Source: Prochlorococcus sp. AG-402-P18
GTDB taxonomy: Bacteria; Cyanobacteriota; Cyanobacteriia; PCC-6307; Cyanobiaceae
Length of the DNA stretch: 64,000 nt
Direction of reading: 5' to 3'
Assembly (NCBI GenBank): GCA_003216275.1
Contig: QCJC01000001.1
Coordinates: 124,001 to 188,000, forward strand
Below the pieces are notes generated by a model. That model did not search any database and was not told the origin of the DNA. It was given only the letters and a program-made list of their open reading frames with translations. Of this stretch, positions 55,882 to 58,754 are shown piece after piece. Each line of letters begins with the position of its first letter. Position 1 is the first letter of the stretch. The position numbers and the translations under genes were made by a program.

Positions 55882-56637
55882 ATGAAATTTAAGCTCTGGA
55901 ATAAAAAAAAAATAATTGAATGTCATGAGCCTTTAATTCCGATCCCAAAATCTTTATTTAGATTGACTCCTCACCCTTATATGTCTTTAGGTGCACCATA
56001 TCCTAATGGAGTAGATCCATGGGTACTTCGAAAAAGTGTTGTAAATAGATTGCTTAAAGCTCAGGCATATCTAACTGAAAATAATTCTTCTCTTCAATTG
56101 GCTTTGTTTGATGCATGGAGGCCTATTTCTGTTCAAAAATTCATGATTAATTATGCTGTCCAAGAAACTTGTAAGTCTAGAGGGATTGATATTAATGATT
56201 CTTCTTTGACTGAAAGCATCAGCCAAGTAGTTGATGATGTTTGTCGGTTCTGGGCCAAACCATCATCTAATCCAGGAAAACCTCCTCCTCATTCTACTGG
56301 TGCTGCGATTGATTTAACACTTGCAGATATGAATGGCACACAGTTAGATCTTGGTGGGGAAATAGATTTTATTGGTGATATTTCTAGACCTGATTTTTAT
56401 AAGACACTTTCTTTAAGTAGGCCTAAATCTAAATATCATGTTTTCCATTCAAGAAGATTATTGTTGATGTCAGTTATGATTAAGGCAGGGTTTGTTCAAC
56501 ATCCAAATGAGTGGTGGCATTTTAGTTATGGGGATCAATTATGGAGTTGGACAAATAATCACAGCGAAGCAGTTTATGGAGCTACATCCGAAGTAAGTAA
56601 TGACAATACATTTTCATTGCCAAGTCTAGTTACATGA
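55882..56637 (+). CDS. D-alanyl-D-alanine dipeptidase, M15D (VanX) family
   Basis: Zinc peptidase that cleaves D-Ala-D-Ala. LFDAWRPISVQKF (substrate Arg), HSTGAAIDLTLAD (His and Asp zinc ligands) and EWWHFSYGDQ (Glu base, His zinc ligand) are all in place. Length 251 is longer than VanX because of a front loop. Cytosolic or periplasmic location unclear, no signal seen. Its last 64 bases overlap the convergent sulfite reductase gene. Confidence 0.9.
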   Translation: MKFKLWNKKKIIECHEPLIPIPKSLFRLTPHPYMSLGAPYPNGVDPWVLRKSVVNRLLKAQAYLTENNSSLQLALFDAWRPISVQKFMINYAVQETCKSRGIDINDSSLTESISQVVDDVCRFWAKPSSNPGKPPPHSTGAAIDLTLADMNGTQLDLGGEIDFIGDISRPDFYKTLSLSRPKSKYHVFHSRRLLLMSVMIKAGFVQHPNEWWHFSYGDQLWSWTNNHSEAVYGATSEVSNDNTFSLPSLVT

Positions 56638-58754
56638 TCCCCAAGGCTTGAGGCTTTACCTGAATTTTTCCAATTTAGAAATAAAGGCCTTAAAGTTTTT
56701 TCTAAATCATTGATTGACATTTTTTGCAGATATGGTGTAGCTAATCTTTTTAAATCAGGACTCCCCCCAAGCCATAATTGATATTGCTTAAGACCACTAC
56801 CAACAAGAGCTAATTCTGCCATATAAGGACGAGCGCATCCGTTTGGGCATCCTGTTACTCTTATTATAATTGACTTTTCAATCTTGAGCTCTTTAAGTTG
56901 ATTGTTTATTCGGTCTAAAAGTTCTGGTAAAAATCGCTCTGCTTCTGTCATCGCAAGCCCACATAATGGAAGTGCTGGACATGCCATTGCGTACCTTGCT
57001 AGTGGTTCTGGATTGCCAGGGTCTGTAAAACCCATATTGGCTAATTCTTCATTAACACTGTTTTTTTGGTAGTTGCCAATATTGCACAACAATAGATCTT
57101 GGTTGGGAGTTAAACGTACATCTAATGCATATCTTTCAACAATATTTCTAAGATCTTTTTTGACTTTCCCCTGAAGCCTGCCAGACAATAGAGGTAGACC
57201 GACAAACCATAGCCCTTTAGATTGCCTATGCCAGCCTAAATAATCTTCTAGTTTTGTTTCCCCCTCATACCTCAGCTTGTGTATCTTTTTCGTGAAATAT
57301 TTTGTTGTTAGTTGTTTCTTAAACCAATCTACACCCATATCATTCAAGACGTATTTTAATCTAGAGTGTCTTCTGATTTTTCTGTCTCCATAATCTCTTT
57401 GAAGTGCAAGTATTGATTGAACAAGCTCTAATATATTTTTCCCTTCTACAAATCCAATTGGGTCGGCAATTCTTGCGAATGTAGTATCCAAGTTATGTGT
57501 TCTACCCATACCTCCGCCAACATAGACATTACATCCCTGTAATTCTCCTTCTTTATTTGTAAAAGTAACTAATCCTATGTCATGAGTAAGAATATCAACA
57601 GAGTTATCACCAGGAACTGTTGTGGCGCATTTAAATTTTCGTGGTAAATAGGTTGAACCATATAAAGGTTCGTTTTTATCTCCGCTAAAAATACCTTTCT
57701 CTAATTGTTTCTTGCGACTTCTCTGGACTTCAGAAGAAGGCTTAATTGCATACTTGAGTTCACCATCAACCCATAAATCTAGGTATGTCTTTTCTGCTTC
57801 TTTAGGTGACAATACATCTGCTATTTCCTTGGCTAATTTTCTGGCAGCAGGGTAAGAACCTTTTGTATATGGCGCTGCTGGAGCCATAACATTTCTGTTG
57901 ATATCTCCACATGCTGCAAGAGTTGATCCCATGGATTTGACTATGGTTCCAATTACTTTTTTTAGACTCTCTTTCTTTATTCCATGCATTTGAAAGCATT
58001 GACGGGTAGTCGCTCTGAGAGTCTGATTCCCAAGTTGATCAGAGAGATCATCTAATGCAATAAATAGTGGACCTGGGACTAAACCAGCAGGATTCCTAAG
58101 CCTAAGCATCATTTGCCAATCCTTGCCTATTCCGCCTCTCTTTCTATGTTCTCGATCATCTTGTTGATAACTGCCATGAAATTTCAAAAGTTGAACTGCA
58201 TCATTTGTAAAATGATCACTTTCATTAAATAATTCACTTTGAAGAGGTTCCTTTAAATAGTTACTGTCGGCTTTGAATTGTTCAAATTTGGCTCGAGGTG
58301 AATTATTAGCTATGCAAGGTGAAGGAATTTTCTTTTCTATAGCTTCTTCACTTGTGATTTCTTTTTCTTCGAAATTTAGTAGAGCCTCTATAGCTGCATT
58401 ACTAAATCCGGCATTTTTTAAATCTTTTTCAATGTTTTTGGATGATTGATTTGAAGAAGTATTACTGGAAATTTCTTCAACTTTCAATCCATTAGGTAAG
58501 GAGCTATTGATTTTTTTTATCTCTTCTTCTCTTAGCTTTTCATCAAATTTTTGCTTAATAGCGAATTCTGCTGAACTTATGTTTTCCTCGGCCTCTTTCT
58601 TTGTGTTCCCTATCTTTTTCACAACATCACATGTTCCTAAAGCGTCCCTTAATTTTCCTCTTGGCACTGCAACTCTGAGGTAAAATCCAGACCTTCCAGG
58701 TATTTTTATGATCTTAGGCAAATGGTACCTACAGCGGTACCTACACTGTATCAT
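56574..58754 (-). CDS. sir: Ferredoxin-sulfite reductase with integrase-like N-terminal extension
   Basis: Reduces sulfite to sulfide with ferredoxin, sirohaem and a 4Fe-4S cluster. The enzyme homology starts near residue 154 (KFEQFKADSNYL) and runs 573 residues, the normal length. Cluster cysteines lie in CPALPLC and CPNGC; RATTRQCFQMHGI and GCNVYVGGGMGRTH are also conserved. The first ~75 residues (CRYRCRYHLPKIIKI, GFYLRVAVPRGKLRDALG, VVKKIGNTKKEAEE) look like the N-terminal domain of tyrosine recombinases, followed by a ~75-residue linker. A TTG at residue 90 is the only internal alternative start before the enzyme. Extension function unknown. Confidence 0.9.
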   Translation of the reverse strand: MIQCRYRCRYHLPKIIKIPGRSGFYLRVAVPRGKLRDALGTCDVVKKIGNTKKEAEENISSAEFAIKQKFDEKLREEEIKKINSSLPNGLKVEEISSNTSSNQSSKNIEKDLKNAGFSNAAIEALLNFEEKEITSEEAIEKKIPSPCIANNSPRAKFEQFKADSNYLKEPLQSELFNESDHFTNDAVQLLKFHGSYQQDDREHRKRGGIGKDWQMMLRLRNPAGLVPGPLFIALDDLSDQLGNQTLRATTRQCFQMHGIKKESLKKVIGTIVKSMGSTLAACGDINRNVMAPAAPYTKGSYPAARKLAKEIADVLSPKEAEKTYLDLWVDGELKYAIKPSSEVQRSRKKQLEKGIFSGDKNEPLYGSTYLPRKFKCATTVPGDNSVDILTHDIGLVTFTNKEGELQGCNVYVGGGMGRTHNLDTTFARIADPIGFVEGKNILELVQSILALQRDYGDRKIRRHSRLKYVLNDMGVDWFKKQLTTKYFTKKIHKLRYEGETKLEDYLGWHRQSKGLWFVGLPLLSGRLQGKVKKDLRNIVERYALDVRLTPNQDLLLCNIGNYQKNSVNEELANMGFTDPGNPEPLARYAMACPALPLCGLAMTEAERFLPELLDRINNQLKELKIEKSIIIRVTGCPNGCARPYMAELALVGSGLKQYQLWLGGSPDLKRLATPYLQKMSINDLEKTLRPLFLNWKNSGKASSLGDHVTRLGNENVLSLLTSDVAP

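Follow-up and report, generated by a model that had tools for sequence, protein, structure and literature searches.

The enzyme PutA carries a DNA-binding domain at its N-terminus and acts as the repressor of its own regulon (PMC5293562), and the sulfite reductase of plastids, DCP68, binds and compacts DNA as a protein of the nucleoid (PMC4154389). In mobile elements, the promoter of an integrase gene frequently overlaps attL, and several integrases repress their own genes, in some cases by way of sites that overlap the promoter (PMC2951348). In Prochlorococcus and Synechococcus, a family of tyrosine recombinases with an unusual domain structure has been described from genomic islands near tRNA-Phe or tRNA-Cys genes (PMC10187409).

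The gene for ferredoxin-dependent sulfite reductase (Sir) analysed here, located in a 64-kb window (the whole stretch of DNA that was analysed), shares traits with each of these systems. It resembles a gene for a tyrosine recombinase with an arm-binding domain in its homologous sequence, in the predicted layout of three strands and one helix and in the tandem direct repeats just before the gene, but the protein has neither a core-binding nor a catalytic domain, and its partner is a metabolic enzyme. With ferredoxin-dependent sulfite reductases (TIGR02042) it shares a complete body that scores above the cut-off and has intact cysteine motifs, whereas none of the other cyanobacterial genera in the search showed its N-terminal extension of about 143 residues. 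As in PutA (PMC5293562), a metabolic enzyme is combined with an N-terminal domain of DNA-binding type, and its gene has a probable operator, although the operator is only a candidate here and repression is inferred; the PutA domain is a ribbon-helix-helix, whereas both the domain and the site of Sir come from the integrase of a mobile element. Like DCP68 (PMC4154389), the fused protein would be a sulfite reductase associated with DNA, but DNA binding is inferred in its case, and the plastid enzyme is described as compacting DNA broadly whereas the fused Sir has a recognisable integrase domain added. Finally, as in autoregulated integrases of the KplE1 intS type (PMC2951348), integrase binding sites, putative in sir, lie at the start of the gene, except that the regulated gene would here be sir.

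Results

The sulfite reductase gene and its extension

The open reading frame listed for this locus spans positions 56574-58754 on the minus strand and contains 726 codons from an ATG. Homology to Sir starts at about residue 147-151 (NCBIfam TIGR02042/NF010029, E ~1e-224), close to residue 154 as given in a preliminary description of the locus, and the frame is indeed open over the approximately 150 codons upstream that were reported there. The C-terminal ~570 residues cover the full length of a ferredoxin-dependent sulfite reductase (744.9 bits with TIGR02042, curated cut-off 731.5), in which the cysteine motifs ACPALPLCG and TGCPNGCARP, read from the sequence, are intact. The unfused Sirs of the family open with the same SPCIAN...KFEQFKADSNYL as the Sir part of the fusion. 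Since a Pfam scan of the whole protein gave only Sir domains above the cut-off, with no Phage_integrase catalytic domain among them, the fused Sir is not an integrase. The gene order recG-M15 peptidase-sir-glyS is identical in fused and unfused genomes, and the fusion thus arose in place. The features of the locus are listed in Table 1. At their 3' ends, sir and the Peptidase_M15 gene (55882-56637), which converges on it, overlap by 64 bp (window positions 56574-56637).

Table 1. Features of the sir fusion locus, with positions in the window.
Feature	Position	Strand	Evidence
Upstream copy of the twin repeat, TGTAGGTACC	58736..58745	-	High identity in the genus; 18/20 repeat bases unchanged in the sister genus
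Downstream copy of the twin repeat, TGTAGGTACC	58724..58733	-	Separated by 2 nt each from the first copy and from the start codon
Predicted start codon TTG, residue 12 of the listed ORF	58719..58721	-	TTG/GTG exchange at the site; upstream TAG in most relatives
Fused sir gene, read from its predicted start TTG at 58721-58719 (715 aa + stop)	56574..58721	-	Sole in-frame start codon common to 30/30 fused genes
Integrase-derived N-terminal domain (arm-binding-like), residues 2-76 counted from the TTG	58494..58718	-	Profile and BLAST homology to tyrosine recombinases; dN/dS 0.072; AlphaFold2
Variable linker	58440..58493	-	dN/dS 0.17; 10% identity to the sister-genus protein; low pLDDT
Second integrase-derived segment, two-helix KNIEKDLKNAGFSNAAIEALLNF	58371..58439	-	hhalign to the same integrase segment (LEQRLKxAGFxxDQI); dN/dS 0.067
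Junction/tail, integrase-derived part to Sir body	58290..58370	-	dN/dS 0.33; Sir's own SPCIAN begins at 58322
Ferredoxin-dependent sulfite reductase body	56574..58289	-	TIGR02042 above cut-off; cysteine motifs

Homology to tyrosine recombinases

The extension is related to a 422-residue ORF of genome G002 that contains Phage_integrase and SAM-like domains, with 40% identity to residues 12-74 (BLASTP, 63 aa, E 7e-11 for the pair), and its N-terminal motif GRSGFYLRVAVPR...VVKKIGNT matches integrases. A profile of the Sir extension and this recombinase detected about 25 additional loci among the family genomes, most of them ORFs of recombinase size (about 400-466 residues), with E-values down to 1e-32 in the genomes and 1e-25 for integrases outside the profile; several of these relatives were confirmed by Pfam Phage_integrase matches in their own C-terminal parts. 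When compared with the alignment of recombinase N-termini using hhalign, the Sir extension obtained a probability of 99.4-99.6% (E 5e-22 to 3e-24) over about 114 of 142 columns, and KDLKxAGFSxxAIEAL of Sir was paired with LEQRLKxAGFxxDQI of the recombinases. Most of the extension, also beyond its first 75 residues, is therefore recombinase-derived. The preliminary description had likened only the first ~75 residues to tyrosine recombinases; the homology is real, but the homologous stretch extends over about 115 residues. The recombinase-invariant residues R10, G12, Y14, P20 and K36 are retained in Sir.

The same description had suggested an integrase N-terminal domain of the DUF6538 kind, joined in frame to sir, a reading that would have been refuted had the extension been absent from integrase profiles. 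The extension does match integrase profiles, while a Pfam scan gave no match of the Sir extension itself to DUF6538 (PF20172), the gathering cut-off not being reached. The suggestion is supported through the recombinase relatives, to which the extension aligns at 99.6% and which match DUF6538 weakly (17-24 bits, E 2e-5 to 4e-3, with 14.5 bits for the Rieske fusion described below; cut-off 27). Only sub-threshold and inconsistent matches were obtained for the extension alone in Pfam, NCBIfam and PHROGs, and no relative of it was found in the viral contigs and phage records searched. The lack of a convincing match in these three databases is what would be expected if the likeness to integrases were a chance or compositional effect of a basic, helical stretch. 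Such an effect is hardly conceivable given the hhalign E-value of 3e-24, the 40% identity to a 422-aa recombinase and the comparable twin repeats ahead of the start codon in Sir and integrase genes. On the basis of the sequence comparisons, we conclude that the stretch of ~143 residues preceding Sir shares ancestry with the N-terminal part of tyrosine recombinases from picocyanobacteria, and there is very little doubt in our minds that it was captured from a recombinase.

For the extension, AlphaFold2 predicted strands at residues 3-5, 13-18 and 32-38 and helices at residues 23-28 and 41-74 (pLDDT ~90), followed by two short helices. In the prediction for the full protein (mean pLDDT 67) the domain retained its form and was followed by low-confidence linkers. 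Three strands and a helix represent the canonical arm-binding layout (PMC8138268), yet the structure searches with the extension gave no significant match: Foldseek returned none, and the best Z-scores in VIA were 3-4, with unrelated entries among them. One of the VIA matches, 3rmp (attP recognition by P4-like integrases), was rejected since it reached a Z-score of 3.0 only, among unrelated entries, and is not used as evidence.

Distribution of the fusion

Every Sir in the window's genus that was long enough to judge contains the extension (n = 30, of which 29 are complete and one is split over two contigs), and so does the Sir of a sister-genus genome (G097), with 70% overall identity. A search of 400 family genomes with the extension profile found the domain joined to Sir in these two genera only. 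In the listed Sirs of other genera (300 family genomes), the alignment mostly begins at residue 127-155 and the ORFs are mostly about 600 residues in size. A few unfused alignments extend further upstream, to residues 75 (G112), 99 (G069), 112 (G075) and 117 (G108), only through stop codons, and no integrase relics were detected upstream of sir in these four genomes with the domain profile in frames of at least 40 residues. The extension is thus lineage-specific, as the preliminary description had proposed to examine, and its presence in all Prochlorococcus Sirs, which would have argued against a capture, is ruled out since most of them lack it. The fusion is old and genus-wide rather than an accident of one genome, and the best explanation is that an integrase 5' end was joined to sir in an ancestor common to one Prochlorococcus genus and its sister genus. 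We found no earlier description of this fusion in a literature search, which did not cover subscription journals.

Translation start and selection

The codon for residue 12 of the listed ORF is TTG in 28 genes and GTG in 2, and it is the sole start codon common to all 30 (29 from the genus and G097). In most of the genus, a TAG within the second repeat, three codons before the TTG, shuts the upstream frame, so that no earlier start is possible in most relatives. In the window and in the genomes closest to it, an upstream ATG is in frame owing to a single extra T, and this creates the apparent start MIQCRYRCRYH. The listed ATG was rejected as the start for these reasons, only the TTG/GTG being universal. 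Because the frame of residues 1-11 (MIQCRYRCRYH) reads through the repeats and is closed by TAG in most relatives, these residues are very probably untranslated. Judged by conservation, translation likely begins at residue 12.

Median dN/dS values for the 29 genus sequences were as low in the integrase domain (0.072) and the second segment (0.067) as in the Sir core (0.077), and higher in the linker (0.17) and the tail (0.33). These are pairwise Nei-Gojobori estimates rather than a codon-model fit, and synonymous differences averaged 0.37-0.48 per site. The two captured segments are constrained as much as the catalytic body, with loosely constrained linkers between them. Contrary to one of the two readings in the preliminary description, the integrase piece is thus not decayed. 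An open frame is in itself no proof of translation, and 25 of the 30 genes have an ATG at residue ~126 of the listed ORF; the extension could accordingly be an untranslated remnant that is merely read through, with Sir starting downstream, for example at a TTG near residue 90 as had been offered as an alternative. However, the frame is open in all 30 genes, dN/dS is about 0.07 across the integrase domain, the ATG is missing in the window and the TTG is private to it (1 of 30 genomes, absent in the 29 relatives). The start at residue 90 is rejected, and an untranslated extension is in general very improbable.

The low dN/dS values instead imply that the captured segments are translated and functional, which we hold to be practically certain, though not which function they have. 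Selection on the domain leaves the kept activity unspecified, and domain and repeats could be conserved independently of each other; the captured domain might thus have lost DNA binding and now serve protein contacts, such as Sir oligomerisation, ferredoxin docking or a sulfur-enzyme complex. We consider this unlikely, as the residues conserved across recombinases have been retained and a putative binding site has been retained next to the gene.

Twin repeats ahead of the start codon

The sequence TGTAGGTACC occurs exactly twice in the window, with a period of 12 bp and with both copies ahead of the extension. Counted as the pattern TGTWGGTACC, shuffled sequences contained 0.08 copies on average and reached two in 0 of 100 cases. 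The preliminary description had noticed this duplication at the beginning of the domain; the two copies do exist, but what they form is a conserved site outside the coding sequence and no repeat within it. The two 10-bp units have a mean pairwise identity of 99.3% in the genus, as compared to 82% for the preceding 60 bp, and the spacer is always 2 nt long while its sequence varies (72%). In the sister genus, 18 of the 20 repeat bases are kept versus 40 of 98 outside the repeats. The twin site is single in its own genome in a pattern search that allowed up to 3 mismatches.

Related recombinases have tandem repeats of other sequences before their start codons, such as TGGTAGGACC-ATT-TGGTAGGACC in G002, pairs of TGGTCCTGCA in g33, GTTGGAACCA in G309 and three copies of TGTGGGTACC in G206. 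An ungapped repeat score of at least 9 was obtained for 11 of 20 non-Sir representatives and for both Sirs versus 4 of 112 comparison gene starts, a set that may contain some of the same integrase genes; the remaining 9 representatives had no strong tandem repeat by this score. Since roughly half of the related integrase genes have twin repeats of other sequences at the same position, we infer that the integrase 5' end, consisting of the repeats and the arm-binding-like domain, was captured intact. The repeats are placed and arranged as would be expected of arm-type sites to which the N-terminal domain binds, an inference for which there are no binding data.

More distant integrase N-termini (L124 in G214 and L125 in G145) follow two or three TGTCAGTCA repeats with a 12-bp period; there, the repeat sequence changes while the layout stays. 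A motif like catcgacctggaaaaaccataag is common to L032, L108, L109, L110, L112 and L116, about 70-110 bp upstream of the integrase start, and could be an attachment core; the surroundings of this motif contained neither a tRNA nor an Rfam family. Searches around the integrases with Rfam and ARAGORN gave nothing, so that no tRNA attachment site was identified. The integrases studied here are tyrosine recombinases like those of the island family (PMC10187409), but stretches of about 20 kb around three of them contained no tRNA, islands being variable in length, and it is not established whether the two families are identical.

Conservation of the repeats could have another cause. The domain may bind DNA or RNA mainly non-specifically or act on the nucleoid, in which case the repeats would be kept otherwise, for example for translation initiation. 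The plastid enzyme DCP68 provides a precedent as a DNA-compacting nucleoid protein (PMC4154389), and the repeats sit at the start codon and contain AGG. Both copies are conserved, however, and not just the one adjacent to the start, the spacer is fixed in length but variable in sequence, and the integrase genes have different repeat sequences at the same place, an observation at odds with a common ribosome-binding sequence. Non-specific binding is thus possible but not probable.

A second fusion, to a Rieske oxygenase

The same integrase domain precedes a Rieske oxygenase in two g33 genomes, G380 (L154:11311-12636) and G399 (L155:1086-2402), with Pfam matches to Rieske (E 9e-13) and Ring_hydroxyl_A (E 9e-12) for the fusion in G380. 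Repeats are located ahead of these fusions at the same place as in sir, perfect in G380 and imperfect in G399, and the period is 12 bp as in Sir versus 13 bp in most related integrases. The Rieske part is 66% identical between G380 and G399 and is fused in both genomes with a high-identity match. The neighbouring genes are presumably KASIII-like and SDR-like, as named by reading their sequences. In a tree of the N-terminal domain, the Rieske pair was monophyletic (100) and separate from Sir, so that the two captures look independent. Deep branches were weakly supported and long branches misplaced some integrases, one of them within the Sir group, and the donor lineage is therefore unresolved. 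With the same reservation about deep support, the Rieske fusion apparently represents a capture of its own in another Prochlorococcus genus. A search of other genera for further captures gave recombinases or short fragments only. A 177-residue ORF in L114 and L146 (G256) consists of about 105 residues of an integrase N-terminus and an unrelated tail, and is either a truncated integrase or a third fusion.

Discussion

We propose that the 5' end of a tyrosine recombinase gene, including the repeats, the start codon, the arm-binding-like domain and a helical segment, would have been joined in frame to sir and taken the place of sir's own start. The predicted product is one chain, with a small domain of DNA-binding type, a flexible linker and a normal sulfite reductase. 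If the captured domain still binds DNA, most likely at the two 10-bp repeats, the second of which lies 2 nt from the start codon, the fused Sir would attach to this twin site and regulate sir in the manner of PutA. Sir would thereby control its own expression, probably by repression when it is abundant or not engaged in catalysis. A DNA-binding autoregulator of this kind, acting at its own twin repeats, is in our view the best explanation, held with moderate confidence.

The proposal starts from a homology, a clade-wide presence, a start codon (by conservation), purifying selection and a co-conservation of repeats and domain that the data establish, whereas DNA binding, its target, the sign of the regulation and any link to sulfur or redox state are inferred in the absence of binding or expression data. 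Several observations speak against autoregulation or leave it without support. Foldseek gave no significant match and the VIA Z-scores were low. A sigma-70-like promoter was looked for in the region near the sir start and none was found, so that an overlap of promoter and repeats is conjectural. The repeat period differs by 1 bp from that of most related integrases, and close to half of the non-Sir representatives (9 of 20) were without a strong tandem repeat by score. The repeats could also in part persist as a ribosome-binding region, although the first copy is not explained in this way.

A DNA-binding-type domain of a mobile element has been domesticated by a core assimilation enzyme together with repeats that resemble binding sites, a rare case in which a domain and its putative site can be traced side by side through a clade. 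To our knowledge, the plastid sulfite reductase has no such integrase domain, and the fusion may bear on why that enzyme binds DNA.

Prochlorococcus has few transcription factors, and the capture of a ready-made domain with its operator would therefore be a simple route to new feedback control. We suggest, tentatively and with more doubt than for Sir alone, that integrase 5' ends with twin repeats and an arm-binding domain could be a portable cassette for self-regulation in picocyanobacteria, making the enzymes that capture them their own regulators. If true, this would have happened at least twice, in Sir, a core assimilation enzyme in which it is fixed in the clade, and in a Rieske oxygenase located in a variable region. 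With selection strong on both domain and repeats, a sulfur-assimilation enzyme in one Prochlorococcus clade may bind DNA at its own gene.
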